NCBI RefSeq assembly: GCF_026968045.1
Contig: NZ_JAPVBQ010000001.1
Coordinates: 757,238 to 821,237, forward strand
Source: Modestobacter sp. VKM Ac-2977
Lineage (GTDB): Bacteria > Actinomycetota > Actinomycetes > Mycobacteriales > Geodermatophilaceae
DNA length: 64,000 bases
Direction of reading: 5' to 3'
Shown: positions 54,863-61,728 of the stretch, one piece after another
Numbering within the stretch: position 1 is the stretch's first letter
How the letters are laid out: each line of letters begins with the position of its first letter
The notes under the pieces: generated by a model
Database searches by the model: none
Told to the model about the DNA's origin: nothing
What the model saw: only the letters and a program-made list of their open reading frames with translations
Translations under genes and position numbers: made by a program

Positions 54863-55567
54863 GTGCCGGGTCAGTCCGTGCTCGTGGTCGAGGACACCGA
54901 CGAGATCCGTGAGCTCGTCGTCACGGTGCTCCGCCGGGCCGGGATGGACGTCCGCGAGGCCACCACCGGTGCCTCCTGCCTGGCCGAGGTGCGCCGCGAG
55001 GCGCCCGACGTCGTCGTCCTGGACCTCGGTCTGCCCGACGCCGACGGCACCGAGGTGTGCCGGCAGCTGCGCGCCGAGACCGACTGCTACGTCCTGATGC
55101 TGACCGCGCGGGCGGAGGAGGTCGACCTGCTGATCGGCCTCGCCGTCGGGGCGGACGGCTACATGGCCAAGCCGTTCTCCCCGCGGGAGCTGGTGGCCCG
55201 CGTGCAGACGATGCTGCGCCGGCCGCGCACCGCGGCGATCCCGGAGCCACGCGCCTCCGTGGAGGACCCCGTCCGGCGGCTGGCCGACCTCGAGGTCGAC
55301 CCGGACAGCCGCGAGGTCCGGGTGGACGGCGCTGCCGTCGACCTGACCCGCACCGAGTTCGACCTGCTCGCCGCGCTGGTCTCCCGGCCCGGTCGGGTCC
55401 TGCAGCGGGAGACGCTGCTGCGCGAGGTCTGGCAGACCGACTGGGAGGGCAACCTCCGGCTGGTCGAGGCCCACATGTCCAACCTGCGGCGCAAGCTCAC
55501 GGCCGCAGGGTTGAGCCACCCCGAGATCAAGACCGTCCGGGGGGTCGGGTACCGCTTGGTGGCCTGA
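54863..55567 (+). CDS. OmpR/PhoB-family response regulator
   Basis: The 234-residue protein starts SVLVVEDTDEIRELVVTVLR. It has the acceptor Asp in VVVLDLGLPDADG, the conserved Lys in MAKPFSPRELVARV, and a winged-helix C-terminal domain (LTRTEFDLLAALVSRPGRVL, LVEAHMSNLRRKL, IKTVRGVGYRLV). No kinase is adjacent on this strand. The histidine kinase at 58330 is the nearest candidate, and its regulated site may be the phased repeats at 58274-58313. The GTG at 54863 follows GGGGGAGGGG. Confidence 0.92.
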   Translation: MPGQSVLVVEDTDEIRELVVTVLRRAGMDVREATTGASCLAEVRREAPDVVVLDLGLPDADGTEVCRQLRAETDCYVLMLTARAEEVDLLIGLAVGADGYMAKPFSPRELVARVQTMLRRPRTAAIPEPRASVEDPVRRLADLEVDPDSREVRVDGAAVDLTRTEFDLLAALVSRPGRVLQRETLLREVWQTDWEGNLRLVEAHMSNLRRKLTAAGLSHPEIKTVRGVGYRLVA

Positions 55568-55657: not shown

Positions 55658-56482
55658 TCAGGCGGCCAGGCCGCGCCGCCGGGCGGCCGTCCGGGCGACC
55701 GCGGCGTCGACGACGTGCACCAGCCCGGCGAGGTCGTGGCGTCCGGTGGTCGCGTCGGCGGCGGAGGCGAGCTCCCCACGGCGGCGGGCGTCGTCCCGGC
55801 GGTCAGCCGGGCCGGTCAGGCCGGTCAGCTGGGCGAGCCGCTGGTGGGCCAGGATCCCGCGGCGGGCGTCGGCGGCGATCGCCTGGCACACGCCGGCGAC
55901 CTCGGGGTGGCCGAGCTGACCGGACGTGCCGGCGAGCGTGTGCGCCGCGGCCGCGACGGCGCGGGGGTCCCCGGCGCGGACGCTGCGGGAGATGGCGGAC
56001 AGCCGGGTGGGCAGTGCGTCGGCGTACATGGCCTGCAGCCGGTCCTGCAGGTCGGCGTCCAGGTCGGCGTCGTGCAGGTCCTCCACGTCGACCAGGTCGT
56101 GGGCGCCGGCATGGTCGGCCGGGGCGGCGGTGCGGCTGCGCACCAGGTCCACCAGCAACCGGGCGTCGACGGGCGCGGCCAGGCAGGCGAGGGCGCCGGC
56201 GGCGACTGCTGCGGCGCGGACCTCATCGGTGGGGTCGGGGGTGACCACCAGGAAGTGGGCGGTGCTGCCGGCGCGGCGCAGCTCGGTGAGCAGCCCGGGG
56301 CCGTCGGCGGCGCCGGGCACCGTGGCGGAGGTGACCACCAGGTCCAGGGCGACCGCGCTGCTGAGCCAGCGGGCGTCTGCGGCGTCGGCGGCCTCGTGGA
56401 CGCCCCAGCCGGCCAGCTCGAGCAGGCCGGTGACCTGCTGCCGGGCGGCGGGGGAGGCGTCGATCACGAGGGCGGTCAGCAT
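55658..56482 (-). CDS. Pseudo-receiver/Hpt phosphotransfer protein
   Basis: The 274-residue protein has an N-terminal receiver-like fold (MLTALVIDASPAARQQVTGL to about residue 115) followed by an Hpt domain at about 140-225. The Hpt shows VAAAAHTLAGTSGQLGHPEV with the phospho-His at 181. In the receiver the usual acceptor Asp is a Ser (position 52, in LVVTSATVP) and the conserved Lys is an Ala (in CLAAPVD). It is therefore probably not phosphorylated there. The Hpt could relay phosphate between the nearby kinase/receiver and the OmpR-type regulator. It overlaps the FN3-protein gene by 7 bases, so it is part of the SipW operon. Confidence 0.85.
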   Translation of the reverse strand: MLTALVIDASPAARQQVTGLLELAGWGVHEAADAADARWLSSAVALDLVVTSATVPGAADGPGLLTELRRAGSTAHFLVVTPDPTDEVRAAAVAAGALACLAAPVDARLLVDLVRSRTAAPADHAGAHDLVDVEDLHDADLDADLQDRLQAMYADALPTRLSAISRSVRAGDPRAVAAAAHTLAGTSGQLGHPEVAGVCQAIAADARRGILAHQRLAQLTGLTGPADRRDDARRRGELASAADATTGRHDLAGLVHVVDAAVARTAARRRGLAA

Positions 56483-56892
56483 CGGACGGTTCCTGTCTGT
56501 GGGGACACCGCGGTCCAGCCGTAGCGGGTCAGCGCGGTGACGGTGAAGGTGTAGCTGCGGTTCGTCTGCCATCCGGAGACCGAGGCGCTCGTGATCGTGG
56601 CGCCGGTCTCGGCCACGACGGTGGAGCCGCCGCCGGCGGTCTGCGCGGTGACCCGGTAGCCGATCACGTCGGGCGAGGTGCTCGGGGTCCAGCTGACCCG
56701 GGTGCTGAACCAGAACAGGCACCAGGTGTCGCCGGTGGTGACCTTCGTCGGCGGTGCGACGGTGGCGGTGCCGACGGAGGCGCTCAGGGACGCCGAGTCG
56801 TCGAACGCGGCCTGGGCGGCGGTCGCGGTGACCCCCAGCACGGTGGCGACCACGACGGCGATCAGCAGGACCCCGCGGCGGAGGCGGGTCAC
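56476..56892 (-). CDS. Small exported protein with fibronectin-III-like domain
   Basis: The 138-residue protein begins RLRRGVLLIAVVVATVLGVT as signal helix, then TAAQAAFDDSASLSASVGTA. That resembles the region after SipW-type signal peptides. An FN3-like beta fold follows (RVSWTPSTSPDVIGYRV, RSYTFTVTALTRYGWTAVSP), plus three cysteines. The GTG at 56892 overlaps the stop of the signal-peptidase gene (GTGA), so the two are translationally coupled. It is probably displayed on the cell surface together with the product at 57587-58204. No exact family is recognised. Confidence 0.75.
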   Translation of the reverse strand: MTRLRRGVLLIAVVVATVLGVTATAAQAAFDDSASLSASVGTATVAPPTKVTTGDTWCLFWFSTRVSWTPSTSPDVIGYRVTAQTAGGGSTVVAETGATITSASVSGWQTNRSYTFTVTALTRYGWTAVSPQTGTVRC

Positions 56893-57539
56893 GGCTGGAC
56901 CTCGATCTCGTCGTCCTGCCGGACCTCGGTGGCCGGGCGCCAGATCGACAGCAGCAGCCAGCCGGCCAGCAGGGCGGGGGCGCCGTACACGAGGGCCTGG
57001 CTGACCACCGGGGTGCGCAGGGCCTGGATCGCGTGACCGAGCTCGGGGACGACGGCCCGGACCTGGTAGGCGGTGTCGCCCTGCAGGACGGCCTGCCACG
57101 GGTCGACCGCCTCGTTGGCGTCGCCCTTGGTCTCGACGGTGACCGCCCCGTCGGCGCCGTGCTCCACGGAGACGACGCGGTGGCTGACGAGGTGGTGGTC
57201 GTCGATCGGGATGTGGTAGGCGATGATCATGCCCTCGGTGACCTCGCTGACCGGCAGCGGCGTCACGATCGTGACGTCACCCGGGTCGATGGCCGGGGAC
57301 ATGCTGGCGGTGAGCATCGTCATCGTCCGGTAGTCCAGGACGTGCGGCCCGACGGCCAGCAGGCCGAAGGCCAGGACGGCGACGGTGACCAGCAGCCGGA
57401 GGGACCAGCGGAACGTCAGGCCGGCCACGCGCTTCCCGAGGCCGGCGGTGCAGCCCGGTCGGGTGGACTGCTGCGCCGGACGCCGGGCGATCGCGGTGTC
57501 CGTGAGGAGTGCGGGGGCTGCGAGCAGGGCGGTGGTCAT
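56889..57539 (-). CDS. SipW-type (ER-like) signal peptidase I
   Basis: The 216-residue protein has an N-terminal helix (LLVTVAVLAFGLLAVGPHV). It carries the Ser-His-Asp arrangement of SipW/ER-type signal peptidases: TMLTASMSPAIDPGD with Ser79, LVSHRVV with His120, KGDANEAVDPW with Asp140. A C-terminal helix (ALVYGAPALLAGWLLLSI) follows. Such enzymes process a few dedicated substrates, such as TasA and camelysin. Both genes next to it encode proteins with SipW-like leaders, so they are its likely substrates. It starts 47 bases after the TasA-like gene. Confidence 0.88.
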   Translation of the reverse strand: MTTALLAAPALLTDTAIARRPAQQSTRPGCTAGLGKRVAGLTFRWSLRLLVTVAVLAFGLLAVGPHVLDYRTMTMLTASMSPAIDPGDVTIVTPLPVSEVTEGMIIAYHIPIDDHHLVSHRVVSVEHGADGAVTVETKGDANEAVDPWQAVLQGDTAYQVRAVVPELGHAIQALRTPVVSQALVYGAPALLAGWLLLSIWRPATEVRQDDEIEVQP

Positions 57540-57586
57540 GGCGGTTCCTCCGGGGCGGGGTCAGCGGGTGGGCAGGGGCAACCGCG

Positions 57587-58204
57587 TCAGCGGTTGGTGC
57601 CGGTCTGCTGGGTGCCGGTGAAGCGGAGGTCCAGGGTGGAGGTCTTGCCCTGGAAGGTGTTGTCGGCCGTCTCCGGCAGGGTCAGGGTGACGACGAGGTG
57701 GTCGGTGCCCTTCGGGGCGAGGCTCGCGGCGTTGAGGAAGCCGACGTTGGTCACGGCCGGGCCGGTGGCCACCGGGGTCTTGGCGCCGCTGCAGGTGTAG
57801 GTGGCGACGCCGTTGACGACCGACTCGGTCCAGGTCACCGAGCAGGAGGTGACGCTCAGCTGCAGGCCGTTGGCCTTGTCGGTGTCCAGCACGCTGGAGA
57901 CGGTGGCGCTCGAGGTGAGCTGGATGCCGGCGAAGCCGAGGTTCCCGGTGTTGACCAGGTCGACCGAGCGGCTGATCGAGTCCCCGGGGACGAAGCCGGC
58001 GGCGTTCATCGGCAGCGTGGCGGTGCTGTTGACCGAGTTGAGGTCCAGCGACAGGGTGCCCGAGGCGACCGAGGCGTTCAGCGGGGCGGTGCTGTCGGTG
58101 AACGTGCCGAAGGTGCCCATGCCGGCGACGGCGGCAGCGGCGCCGACGATGCCGAGCGAGCCGATGACCTTGCGGGCGGTCCGGGTGCGGGTGGTGGCGG
58201 TCAT
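57587..58204 (-). CDS. TasA/camelysin-like exported protein with SipW-dependent leader
   Basis: The 205-residue protein has a SipW-type leader (ARKVIGSLGIVGAAAAVAGM, then GTFGTFTDSTAPLNAS). A beta-rich domain with SISRSVDLVNTGNLGFAGIQ and HLVVTLTLPETADNTFQGKT follows, as in TasA/CalY-type fibre proteins. It has two cysteines in VTSCSVTW and YTCSG. The likely role is a surface or matrix fibre subunit. The ATG at 58204 has GGGAGAC upstream; phased repeats at 58274-58313 lie in its promoter region. First gene of the operon 58204 to 55658. Confidence 0.8.
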   Translation of the reverse strand: MTATTRTRTARKVIGSLGIVGAAAAVAGMGTFGTFTDSTAPLNASVASGTLSLDLNSVNSTATLPMNAAGFVPGDSISRSVDLVNTGNLGFAGIQLTSSATVSSVLDTDKANGLQLSVTSCSVTWTESVVNGVATYTCSGAKTPVATGPAVTNVGFLNAASLAPKGTDHLVVTLTLPETADNTFQGKTSTLDLRFTGTQQTGTNR

Positions 58205-58273
58205 GTCTGCGTCTCCCTGGTCTGGCCGTGTCGGCGGGTGCTCCCGGCGACAGACACGACTCTGGAGGGCCAT

Positions 58274-58313
58274 CCGCAGGGCTCCCACCAGCGATCCGCA
58301 AGAGAACCGCAAG
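58274..58313 (-). promoter_or_regulatory. 11-bp-phased CCGCARG repeats upstream of the SipW operon
   Basis: CCGCAGG starts at 58274, CCGCAAG at 58296 and again at 58307, giving steps of 22 and 11 bp. They lie 70-110 bases before the TasA-like start, between it and the histidine-kinase gene. The spacing is that of OmpR-family operators; the regulator at 54863 is the proposed binder. Confidence 0.55.
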
Positions 58314-58329
58314 ATGCGGCGGGGGTCCC

Positions 58330-59775
58330 TCAGGCCGGGAGGGGCAGCGCGAGGGCGAACGTCGTCCCGCGTCCTTCGGCGCTCACCACGTCCAGGGTGC
58401 CGCCGTGCGCGGTGGTGATCGCCTTGGTGATGGTCAGGCCCAGCCCCACTCCCGGGACGGCGTTGCGCCGGGCGGTCGAGGCGCGGAAGAAGCTGGTGAA
58501 CAGCCTCCCCTGTTCACTGTTCGGGATGCCGACGCCGGTGTCGCTGACCGACAGCAGCGCCACCGGCGTCGCGCCGGCAGTGGGGACGTCGACGAGCGCA
58601 CCGTCCGCGTTCCGCCAGGCCGTCTGCAGCCGCAGGGCGACCCGGCCGCCGGCGGGGGTGAACTTGACGGCGTTGGACACCAGGTTGTCGCAGGCCTGCC
58701 CCAGGCGGAGCGCGTCACCGGAGACGACCAGCCCGCCGTCCGGGACGTCGACGGACATCGCCACCCCGCGCGCCGTGGCGGTGACCCGGGCGGTCTCCTC
58801 GGCGGACCGGACGATGCCGGCCAGGTCGACCTGCGCGGGCTGCAGCGTGAACCGGCCCGCGTCGACCTGGGCGGTGAACAGCAGGTCGCCGACCAGCCGC
58901 AGCAGGCGCTGCGCGTTGCGTTCGACGGTGCCCAGGTACTGCCGCTGTTCCCCGGTCAGCGGCTGCTCCGGATCGTCCAGGACGAGTTCCAGGTACCCCA
59001 GGATCGAGCTGAGCGGGGTGCGCAGCTCGTGGGAGATCAGGCTGACGAACTGGTCCTTGAGCCGTTCGGTGGCGCGCACCTCGGTCATGTCGGTGCCGAC
59101 GAAGTTCCAGCCGGTCTGCTCGCCGTCGTCGTCGGTGCGCGGGGTGATCGCCACCGACACGGTGAGCCGCCGTCCGTCGGCGGTCAGGTAGGTCCAGTCC
59201 CGGACGTCGCTGCCCTGCTCCCGGGCCACGCGCACCAGGGTGGCGAACGGGGTGCCGCCCCCGGCGTCCGGCTCCTCGGCGTCCAGTTCCTCCGTGTCCA
59301 GCTCCTCGGGGGCATGGAAGTCGATGATCGACCGGGTGCGGACGACGTCGGCCCGGGGGAGCCCGAGCATCCGTTCGGCCCCGGGGTTCCACACCCGGAC
59401 GAGACCGTCCCGGTCGGTGCCGATGATCGACTGCTCGGTGACCGCGTCGATGACGCTCGTCATGGTCTCCGCTCGCGCGCGCAGCATCCGGGTGGCGACC
59501 TCCAGCTCGTCCGCGGTCGTCTGACGCTGCGAGAAGAGGTCCAGGCGCTGGGCCTCCAGGACCCGGGCGGCGGTCTGCTGCCGGTGCAGTCGCCACGTCA
59601 GGTCGGCGACGGCGAGCAGCACGACGGAGCCGGCCAGCAGGACCAGGGGGAGGGCGGGACGGACGACGAGCACCAGGACGCCGGCTGCGCCCACGGCGGC
59701 GGCTCCCAGCCCGGCCACGCCGGTGCGGTGCGCCGGCCCGGAGGAGCGGGCGACGGGATCGGCGATCGCGGTCAC
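58330..59775 (-). CDS. PAS-containing sensor histidine kinase
   Basis: The 481-residue kinase has two N-terminal helices (residues about 20-65), a coiled segment and a PAS domain at about 100-215 (TSVIDAVTEQSIIGTDRDGL, VRVWNPGAERMLG). HisKA follows (QFVSLISHELRTPLSSILGY), then HATPase (ACDNLVSNAVKFTPAGGRVA, LLSVSDTGVGIP, GVGLGLTITKAITTAHGG). It starts at the GTG at 59775, which overlaps the stop of the receiver gene. With that receiver, the Hpt protein and the OmpR-type regulator it can form a phosphorelay. Confidence 0.93.
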   Translation of the reverse strand: MTAIADPVARSSGPAHRTGVAGLGAAAVGAAGVLVLVVRPALPLVLLAGSVVLLAVADLTWRLHRQQTAARVLEAQRLDLFSQRQTTADELEVATRMLRARAETMTSVIDAVTEQSIIGTDRDGLVRVWNPGAERMLGLPRADVVRTRSIIDFHAPEELDTEELDAEEPDAGGGTPFATLVRVAREQGSDVRDWTYLTADGRRLTVSVAITPRTDDDGEQTGWNFVGTDMTEVRATERLKDQFVSLISHELRTPLSSILGYLELVLDDPEQPLTGEQRQYLGTVERNAQRLLRLVGDLLFTAQVDAGRFTLQPAQVDLAGIVRSAEETARVTATARGVAMSVDVPDGGLVVSGDALRLGQACDNLVSNAVKFTPAGGRVALRLQTAWRNADGALVDVPTAGATPVALLSVSDTGVGIPNSEQGRLFTSFFRASTARRNAVPGVGLGLTITKAITTAHGGTLDVVSAEGRGTTFALALPLPA

Positions 59776-60158
59776 CCGGGGTGCTCCGCGGTCAGCAGCT
59801 GGATCTGCCGGACCAGGCCGGCGACGGTGAAGGGCTTGGGCAGGTAGGCGTCCGCACCTGTGGCCAGACCGCGGGCCACGTCGTCGGGGGAGGCGCCGGC
59901 CGACAGCAGCAGTACGCGGCAGTCGTCGGTGGCGGGGTCGGCGCGCAGTGCCAGGCAGACCTCCAGGCCGGTCGCCTCCGGCATGGAGACGTCGAGCACG
60001 AGAAGGTCGGGGCGCTCGGCGCGTGCCACGGTGAGGGCCTGGGCGCCGTCGGCCACCGCGGCCACGACGGTGCAGCCGGCCTTGCCGACCGCGAGGGCGA
60101 CGAGGTGCCGGATGTCCTCCTCGTCGTCGGCCACCAGCACGCGTGCGGGTGCGTCCAC
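59772..60158 (-). CDS. Stand-alone CheY-like receiver
   Basis: The 128-residue protein is one complete receiver. RVLVADDEEDIRHLVALAVG carries the acidic pair, LLVLDVSMPEATGLEV the acceptor Asp, LLLSAGASP the Ser, and DAYLPKPFTVAGLVRQI the Lys. There is no output domain. The GTG at 60158 has GGAG 8-11 bases upstream, and the longer GTG at 60233 is possible. It overlaps the kinase gene, so it is the immediate phospho-acceptor and can pass phosphate to the Hpt protein. Confidence 0.88.
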   Translation of the reverse strand: MDAPARVLVADDEEDIRHLVALAVGKAGCTVVAAVADGAQALTVARAERPDLLVLDVSMPEATGLEVCLALRADPATDDCRVLLLSAGASPDDVARGLATGADAYLPKPFTVAGLVRQIQLLTAEHPG

Positions 60159-60358: not shown

Positions 60359-61036
60359 TCAGGAGGAGGACTTCTCCTGGACCTTCTGCTTGGAGTCCTG
60401 GGCCTGGCCCTTGACGTCCTTCGCGGCGTGCTGGCCCTCGTCCTTGACCTCCTTGGCGCCCTCGGCAGCCGTGGAGAGGACCGAACCCGCAGCGCTCACA
60501 GCGGCCGGCTTCAGGTTGCCGCCGATCTCCTGGGCCACGTTCTTGGCCTGCTGCATCGCCTGCTCCTTGAGCGGCTCCGAGTGCTCCTTGAGCGCCGACT
60601 CGGCCTGCGAGGCGAGCTGCTTCTCCTTCTCGCTGGTCGGCATCAGGGAGGAGATCAGCCAGCCCGCACCGAAGGCGATGAGGCCCGCGGCGAGCGGGTT
60701 GCCCTGCGCCTGGCGCTGGAGGTTCTCGGGGGCCTGCTGGACGGTGTCCATGGCGCTGTGCGCGGCGTCCTGGACGTTGCCCGCAGCATTGTGGGCCGCA
60801 CCCTGGGCCTGGCCCTGCGCCTGGGAGGCGCGGCCGCCGGCCTGGTCACGGGCGTCGTGTGCGGCACCGAAGACCTTGTCCTTCAGGCCGGACATGCCGC
60901 TCTTGGCCTTGCCCACGCGACGGTCGACGACCCGCGTGGGGTTGACCTTCTCGTTGAGGGCGTCCACGTCGTAGCTGAGGTTGGCGCGGGTGTCCTCGAT
61001 CTGGCGCCGGATCTGATCCGGGTCACTGCTGGTCAT
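60359..61036 (-). CDS. DUF3618 domain-containing protein
   Basis: The 225-residue protein opens with the DUF3618 signature: PDQIRRQIEDTRANLSYDVD and LNEKVNPTRVV. It continues as an Ala/Gln-rich helix (AGGRASQAQGQAQGAAHNAA, GNVQDAAHSAMDTV) with one membrane helix near residues 118-135 (NPLAAGLIAFGAGWLISSLM). A long charged coiled tail ends in KVQEKSSS. DUF3618 proteins are cell-envelope proteins usually encoded next to phage-holin-family proteins, as here. The role is unknown and probably stress-related. It starts 35 bases after the holin-family gene. Confidence 0.88.
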   Translation of the reverse strand: MTSSDPDQIRRQIEDTRANLSYDVDALNEKVNPTRVVDRRVGKAKSGMSGLKDKVFGAAHDARDQAGGRASQAQGQAQGAAHNAAGNVQDAAHSAMDTVQQAPENLQRQAQGNPLAAGLIAFGAGWLISSLMPTSEKEKQLASQAESALKEHSEPLKEQAMQQAKNVAQEIGGNLKPAAVSAAGSVLSTAAEGAKEVKDEGQHAAKDVKGQAQDSKQKVQEKSSS

Positions 61037-61071
61037 GTCGTTCTCCTCTGCGGAGTAGCTGTGGGGGGAAG

Positions 61072-61728
61072 TCAGTGGGGCTTGACGGCGCCGGGGACCT
61101 GCTTGAGCGTGTCCACGGTCTGCTCGGGCTTGGGGTTCAGCGACTTGAAGCGGCTGAGGTCCACCTGGGTGACCCGCTTGGGGTCGACCTGCTTGAGCTT
61201 CTTCCGGCCCATCGCGGCCAGGACGGCCGCGGCGATGCCCCAGAGGACGGCGACGACGAGCGTGGCCCAGCCGAGGCTGTCGAACAGGTCGGCGAGAGCC
61301 CACATCAGGGCCAGGCTCAGGAACAGCACCAGCATGAAGCCGGCGAAGGCGGCGCCACCGAGCATCCCGGCGCCCTTGCCGGCCTTGGCCGCCTCTTCCT
61401 TGGCGATGCCGCTGGCCTTGTTCGCCTCTTCCTTGGCGATGACCGTGGCCTCGGTCGCCTCCTGGCGGAGCTCCGCCTTGGCGAGCTCGAGCTCCTGGCG
61501 CATCAGCGTCGACAGGTCCCTGCTCACCTCGCCGAGCAGCGTGCCGACCGAGACGTCCTCGACCTCGGGGTGACCCTCGTCGGTCATCGGCTGCGCCGTG
61601 TTGCCGACGTGCTGGGCCTCGTAGTCACCGGGGACGGGCGGGGCCGCGTAACCGGTGGCCCCGCTCTGTGCGTACCCGGTGCCGGGCTGGCCGTACGGCT
61701 GCGCGCCCGGAGCGGTCGGCTGGCTCAT
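61072..61728 (-). CDS. Phage-holin-superfamily (DUF1469) membrane protein
   Basis: The 218-residue protein has a Gly/Tyr/Gln-rich leader (GAQPYGQPGTGYAQSG). The family segment follows (VGTLLGEVSRDLSTLMRQEL, ELAKAELRQEA), then a coiled region and two membrane helices (AGFMLVLFLSLALMWALADL, SLGWATLVVAVLWGIAAAVL). The family is named after holins but acts in envelope stability in many bacteria. Its ATG overlaps the stop of the preceding gene (61725). Confidence 0.9.
   Translation of the reverse strand: MSQPTAPGAQPYGQPGTGYAQSGATGYAAPPVPGDYEAQHVGNTAQPMTDEGHPEVEDVSVGTLLGEVSRDLSTLMRQELELAKAELRQEATEATVIAKEEANKASGIAKEEAAKAGKGAGMLGGAAFAGFMLVLFLSLALMWALADLFDSLGWATLVVAVLWGIAAAVLAAMGRKKLKQVDPKRVTQVDLSRFKSLNPKPEQTVDTLKQVPGAVKPH

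Follow-up and report, generated by a model that had tools for sequence, protein, structure and literature searches.

In Bacillus subtilis, the tapA-sipW-tasA operon is under the control of SinR and SlrR. A SipW operon with a two-component system of its own, BsaRS, has been described in Clostridium perfringens as sipW-bsa, where BsaR is reported to bind the sipW promoter in the setting of a pellicle matrix (PMC7395162). This is the closest known counterpart of the locus that we describe here, from a 64,000-nucleotide (nt) stretch of the Modestobacter sp. VKM Ac-2977 genome (contig NZ_JAPVBQ010000001.1, positions 757,238 to 821,237; the whole stretch is referred to as the window), in which a SipW-type signal peptidase and a putative polymer-forming secreted protein are likewise accompanied by a dedicated kinase and regulator. 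Unlike in C. perfringens, the kinase and a stand-alone receiver (REC) lie upstream and an OmpR-type regulator is convergent, rather than being placed within the operon. The actinobacterial locus furthermore adds an FN3 protein and a protein joining a receiver to a histidine-containing phosphotransfer (Hpt) domain (REC-Hpt), and its promoter box of four repeats is also found at unlinked genes.

A second point of comparison is the B. subtilis operon itself (PMC10151520, PMC10269814), which like our locus encodes a TasA-fold subunit, a peptidase of the SipW type and one more small protein for export, with an aromatic residue at P2'. There, TapA is reported to donate its N-terminal strand to TasA (PMC10151520), whereas at our locus an FN3 protein takes the place of TapA and a dedicated two-component system is adjacent. 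In the open-access literature, supplements not covered, we found no such combination in actinobacteria, in line with the first-pass annotation of this DNA, whose statement that it knew of none must nevertheless be read beside the analogous C. perfringens operon. No open-access paper mentioning SipW together with Geodermatophilaceae was found either; for adhesion in this family, a genotype-phenotype study names Tad pili (PMC9686282), and the single paper found to mention both TasA and Geodermatophilus is a different one.

We propose, at a probability of roughly three in four, that the PAS histidine kinase (HK) and the convergent OmpR-type regulator activate a regulon of SipW-processed, TasA-type surface fibres, to which REC-Hpt would be accessory. 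According to this model, HK would pass phosphate directly to the OmpR-type regulator, which in its phosphorylated form would bind four 11-base-pair (bp) repeats located 5' of a -10-like element, in place of a -35 element, and so switch on tasA-sipW-fn3-recHpt. Cleavage of the TasA-like and FN3 leaders would fall to the SipW-like enzyme, with the TasA-like protein expected to polymerise and the FN3 protein serving as a minor subunit or starter. REC-Hpt, encoded by the last gene of the operon, may act as an accessory or feedback modulator of kinase and regulator, without forming an obligatory phosphotransfer step. Direct HK-to-OmpR signalling at the repeats is the most economical account of gene order, residues and regulon. 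If correct, the model would give the soil and stone actinobacteria of the Geodermatophilaceae a regulated TasA-type matrix fibre, together with a defined promoter code from which the fibre regulon can be predicted throughout the family, and a set of naturally occurring pseudo-phosphotransfer proteins for probing the Hpt fold without its histidine. Gene order, residues and the box can be read directly from the genomes, as can the joint occurrence of box and OmpR and the placement of the box in front of TasA-family genes; the individual features are listed in Table 1.

Table 1. Features of the fibre locus in the window, with the evidence for each.
Feature	Position	Strand	Evidence
Stand-alone receiver (REC)	59772..60158	-	PF00072 88.1 bits; start codon uncertain, 60158 or upstream
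PAS histidine kinase (HK), hydrophobic N-terminal region	58330..59775	-	HisKA, HATPase_c and PAS in Pfam
Fibre-promoter box, four 11-bp direct repeats	58270..58314	-	Repeat pattern and sequence model
-10-like CAGAGT, 9 bp 3' of the fourth repeat	58259..58264	-	Conserved columns in 60 distinct 80-mers; putative -10 role
TasA/camelysin-like exported putative fibre subunit	57587..58204	-	PF12389 49.4 bits (cut-off 22.5)
SipW/archaeal-type signal peptidase	56889..57539	-	TIGR02228 55.2 bits (curated cut-off 51.85)
Small exported FN3 protein, SipW-type leader	56476..56892	-	PF00041 34.5 bits (cut-off 25)
REC-(pseudo)Hpt protein	55658..56482	-	PF00072 39.8 bits (30.2) and PF01627 35.4 bits (24.6)
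OmpR-type response regulator, convergent	54863..55567	+	PF00072 and PF00486

Open reading frames, Pfam and NCBIfam place the seven genes, their strands, overlaps and catalytic residues where the first-pass annotation had them, with overlaps of 4 nt between REC and HK, 4 nt between SipW and FN3 and 7 nt between FN3 and REC-Hpt, and with Pfam scores far over the cut-offs for HK, REC and the OmpR-type regulator. To these we added a comparison with relatives, for which 112 Geodermatophilaceae genomes were searched and 60 regions fetched, making 61 loci together with the window; the synteny table was built with profiles trimmed to the window proteins. The conserved synteny that had been named as a check on the locus is present: the order REC, HK, tasA, sipW, fn3, recHpt with a convergent ompR recurs, with variants, in Modestobacter, Blastococcus and related genera, and because the same order is found across several genera the arrangement is not due to chance. 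An OmpR-type gene was detected at E<=1e-80 in 84 of the 112 genomes, and HK at E<=1e-60 in 81, all of which also carry OmpR at the former threshold. At the thresholds used, SipW, OmpR, HK, TasA and the box are all absent from seven Modestobacter genomes that are >=99% complete (G085, G087, G088, G093, G101, G102 and G103), which suggests loss or transfer as a unit. The closest named relative in a SipW scan, which possibly omitted the window's own record, is Modestobacter caceresii at 95% identity.

Several variants were seen. Ten of the 60 regions (L053, L054, L056-L061, L063, L066) have HK and OmpR without TasA and SipW, and in nine of these REC-Hpt sits between the two. Seven loci (L038, L062, L067, L068, L075, L088, L089) contain two TasA genes, the second with a separate box, and in some Blastococcus loci REC-Hpt is duplicated in tandem; a second, more degenerate copy follows the first in L042, L043, L045-L047, L049 and L051. 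Locus L072, of genome G083, retains tasA, sipW, fn3 and the box beside an OmpR-type gene in three pieces in different frames. The description of the regulator as lacking a partner kinase proved misleading, given that in the Klenkia-type loci L070 and L071 the orthologous HK is the direct, co-directional neighbour of the OmpR-type gene, with gaps of 35 and 50 nt. Beyond the family, sipW, fn3 and recHpt occur together with a convergent ompR in Pseudonocardia bannensis (L214). An Arthrobacter locus (L221), in which tasA and sipW face an OmpR-like match (246 bits) followed 594 nt further on the same strand by a kinase-like match (203 bits), was dropped as a further adjacent orthologous HK-OmpR pair on account of that gap and the partial kinase match.

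The HK-OmpR pair, linked genetically as described above, has kept both its kinase histidine and its regulator aspartate: His249, Glu250, the N-box Asn, the G1 Asp and the G2 Gly of HK are found in all 56 orthologues of the family alignment, and Asp54 of the OmpR-type regulator in 57/57. The phospho-accepting Asp of the stand-alone REC (D56 in the window) is equally invariant in the 40 orthologues scored. A different picture emerged for REC-Hpt: 13 of 53 copies have the phospho-accepting His of the Hpt domain, and the number is again 13 when only the 47 copies that carry a TLAG-like motif are counted. One copy (L048) is gapped at this position, and the replacements elsewhere are Ala, Gln, Tyr, Phe or others; the 53 include degenerate second copies, and kinship is ignored in these residue counts. 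The motif around the missing histidine is retained (Leu183 in 52/53, Ser187 in 51/53 and Gly191 in 51/53), and the receiver-domain Asp is kept in 38/53. Both acceptors occur together in 9 copies, Asp only in 29 (counting the gapped copy), His only in 4 and neither in 11. On an HK tree of 47 rows, built by a quick method that leaves 14 of 44 inner branches open, the state of the Hpt His changes at least five times. The window protein itself has His181 and carries Ser52 in place of the receiver Asp, so the term 'pseudo-receiver' holds for the window but not for the family, where it is the Hpt half that has mostly lost its residue.

These observations bear on the four-step relay that the first-pass annotation had put forward, in which phosphate would pass from HK by way of the stand-alone REC and Hpt His181 to OmpR and so govern the fibre operon. 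All four module types (kinase, receiver, Hpt and DNA-binding regulator) are indeed clustered, the acceptors H249, D56, H181 and D54 are all present in the window's species, and REC-Hpt retains acceptors outside the core genera, in Pseudonocardia L214 (His, Asp and Lys) and in L071. However, the Hpt His is not conserved in the family; Modestobacter G104 (L083, L205), with HK, OmpR, TasA, SipW, FN3 and the box all present, lacks an orthologue of REC-Hpt (best match E 3.7e-6); L070 has HK beside OmpR with no REC-Hpt; and a clear stand-alone REC upstream of HK is found at 41 of 57 HK loci, the other 16 including three with a weak REC-like match (L060, L067, L071). Because of the low frequency of the Hpt His and the state of G104, we reject the relay as a conserved mechanism and consider it improbable overall, while His181 means that such a relay may still operate in the window's species.

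The AlphaFold2 model of REC-Hpt has a predicted local distance difference test score (pLDDT) of 84.3 and a predicted template-modelling score of 0.46, and the best 50 of 1599 rows of a PDB fold search contained receiver domains and full-length regulators with no separate Hpt match; the Hpt fold therefore rests on Pfam (45/46) and on predicted helices. A class-wide search, insensitive since six candidates were scored per genome, recovered REC-Hpt in 2 of 393 genomes, both Geodermatophilaceae, and the Pseudonocardia locus shows that the protein is not strictly limited to this family. In five loci without fibre genes (L058-L061, L066) the box stands before recHpt, which fits a pathway product acting back on the pathway. 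One reading, which we hold as somewhat short of an even chance, is that REC-Hpt is a former phosphotransfer protein whose acceptors have been lost repeatedly, kept as a box-driven gene of the fibre regulon even where the fibre genes are gone, and acting as a non-catalytic modulator of HK or OmpR, for example in a feedback coupling fibre output to signalling.

The exported proteins were compared with known families and structures. Ser, His and Asp are the catalytic residues of archaeal-type signal peptidase I, and S79, H120 and D140 of the SipW-like protein, at exactly the positions assigned to them previously, are invariant in the 51 relatives scored. Against the Bacillus equivalogs, the SipW-like protein reached 45.2 bits (NF046067, curated cut-off 190) and the TasA-like protein 24.2 bits (NF046066, curated cut-off 450), both under the cut-off. 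The leader motif G-x-F-x-[DSEAN]-[ST] is present in 59 of 60 family TasA proteins (shuffled sequences: mean 1.7, maximum 6), and AxA-x-[FYW] in all 46 leaders of the gene after sipW (mean 4.5, maximum 10), a count favoured by the choice of leaders with a hydrophobic N-terminus; the FN3 leader has its aromatic residue two positions past the presumed cleavage site. Similar export with SipW-type leaders characterises the NCBIfam families TIGR04088 and TIGR04089, annotated for a SipW-dependent-type signal peptide, which match 9 and 3, respectively, of 57 family TasA proteins; the TasA-like protein of the window matched neither at E<=0.01.

Using the predicted structure of the TasA-like protein as a query against the PDB, we obtained the TasA fibre structure 8aur at rank 1 (E 5.9e-5), the only match at E<=0.001, with the TasA monomers 5of1 and 5of2 at ranks 4 and 14 and an archaeal bundling pilus among the next rows, as are arrestin and viral capsid chains. 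The model has a pLDDT of 73.9, and its low-confidence residues 1-49 are compatible with a leader followed by a free donor strand. Both results argue against the exported proteins being a camelysin-like surface set with another role, such as proteolysis or single-protein adhesion, and forming no fibre. That explanation draws on the name of PF12389, camelysin metallo-endopeptidase, and on a TasA link made by sequence and predicted fold, and we judge it a shade less probable than the relay. Synteny, the TasA fold match and the box before TasA-family genes thus support the role first proposed for this operon, the signal-controlled production of SipW-dependent exported fibre proteins.

The promoter box begins 108 nt 5' of tasA and consists of four 11-bp direct repeats of the consensus unit YTGCGG-N5, with unit 3 mostly KGGCGG; in the window, the units read TTGCGG, TTGCGG, TGGTGG and CTGCGG, each followed by N5. 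For each of the 57 TasA promoters in the 61 loci, the best match departs from the 12 fixed positions of units 1-2 at no more than one of them. A set of 60 distinct 80-mers shows TTGCGG as unit 1 in 48 cases and as unit 2 in 56, TGGCGG or GGGCGG as unit 3 in 41, and CTGCGG as unit 4 in 52; units 1-2 were used to gather the promoters and units 3-4 were unselected. The 62 promoters kept were reduced to 59 references plus the window by removal of duplicates, and a 45-base sequence-only model was made from 58 references and the window, omitting L050, whose second unit is out of register; the REC-Hpt promoters of L053, L054, L057 and L063, which match only with 4-5 mismatches, were excluded from the box set.

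Scanning the 688,218 bases of the 61 loci with the core pattern gave 54 matches, 53 of them intergenic, on the same strand and before an operon gene. When the spacing was varied, N5 gave these 54 matches and other spacings 0-16, while the reversed pattern gave 1 at N5 and 0-24 elsewhere. On these two scans we reject the possibility that the box arose by chance. The window contains one occurrence of the core pattern against 0.10 expected. Across its own genome the core pattern alone is unspecific (8 matches, against 21 for the reversed control); the 45-base model, by contrast, finds the fibre promoter as the single full site (E 8.6e-12), secondary matches being weak and partial (best E 0.086). 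A search of plasmids with the box returned no match. Direct repeats with 11-bp phasing, as found here, are characteristic of sites of OmpR/PhoB-type regulators, where they fit a tandem dimer, and in Pho-box promoters such repeats replace the -35 element. Like these OmpR/PhoB-activated promoters, the box is built of 11-bp direct repeats that stop shortly 5' of a -10-like element; it differs from the Pho box in its half-site YTGCGG, its four units and its association with a fibre regulon. By these sequence features, it is likely the binding site of the OmpR-type regulator.

The distribution of the box is consistent with this assignment. Model matches at E<=0.01 occur in 84 of the 112 genomes, and at E<=1e-3, ignoring kinship, 78 genomes have the box together with OmpR, 6 have OmpR only, 1 the box only and 27 neither; this count omits G045, G064, G065, G066 and G071, with boxes at E 0.002-0.01, and a weak SipW match in G076. 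That another regulator reads the box, OmpR and HK being merely neighbours of the operon, is the least probable explanation: in its favour are the six genomes with OmpR and no box, five of them >=90% complete, and against it are this tight co-occurrence, the adjacency of regulator and operon across genera and a repeat layout suited to a tandem OmpR/PhoB-type dimer. A separate TasA search found 131 TasA-family genes in 73 of the 112 genomes, and at least 98 of them, unlinked genes included, are preceded on their own strand by a box at a distance of 110-147 nt, with 0.003 expected for random placement. At least 150 boxes were listed, comprising 60 in the regions behind the model, which are for that reason not independent, 66 in 65 unlinked or contig-edge regions, and 24 whose regions were not fetched. 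Among the 65 regions, the gene behind the box is a clear TasA-family member in 27, a broken TasA gene or a leader-only stub of roughly 64 amino acids (aa) in 8, a gene for another exported protein in 10, one for a small acidic protein in 6 (of 37 aa in four cases) and one for a response regulator in 1, with 1 doubtful.

Several findings weigh against the regulon that we propose. Units 1-2 of the box were partly selected during promoter collection, and the resemblance of the predicted fold to TasA is modest (TM-scores 0.39-0.47), the TasA chains being interspersed in the ranking with chains of arrestin and viral capsids. The OmpR-type gene occurs with no box at E<=1e-3 in G041, G042, G046, G047, G056 and the incomplete G098, and the box-positive G083 has only its fragmented OmpR. 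Among the matches listed, which extend to about E 1e-5, no box was found for 33 of the 131 TasA-family genes; some of these are Klenkia-type with weaker boxes and some lie at contig ends, and the others, unlinked paralogues included, are unexplained. Lastly, no recognisable gene follows the box in 12 of the 65 unlinked or contig-edge regions.

The classes of these 65 regions combine automatic assignment (TasA 27, TasA weak 5, secreted 12, small 5, none 16) with reading of individual regions. Four regions thereby left the none class, L126 and L234 being counted as exported, L252 as small and L246 as a response regulator. L148, L153 and L247, initially secreted, were re-assigned as leader-only stubs, L250 became doubtful, and the TasA weak class was divided, L143 and L256 being stubs and L130, L152 and L255 broken genes. 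The box-fronted stubs of L143, L148, L153, L247 and L256 are proteins of about 64 aa in which a TasA-like leader is followed by no more than a short tail, and one may speculate, by analogy with TapA, that they or the FN3 protein serve as fibre starters. At L246 the box lies 5' of a receiver-containing response regulator, which hints at a regulatory cascade. A 37-aa frame, MDIETAYALL... (63 aa in L124), starts 61-63 nt after the box start and is probably leaderless; it is seen in L093 (G000:C1:686211-686227) and L120-L124, with relatives in five Modestobacter-genome regions. Its site in the window's own genome is weak (E 0.086) and without CAGNGT, and it alone among the secondary matches has in-phase units and relatives.

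Two further observations concern the surroundings and the records used. Upstream of REC and on the same strand, window positions 60359-61728 hold two low-complexity genes, which may be YtxH-like; the profile of one of them has matches in some of the fetched regions. Two records, titled Vibrio cholerae 35D (L213) and Bacillus sp. AZ43 (L165), contain TasA/SipW loci that look actinobacterial, and their titles appear to be misassigned.

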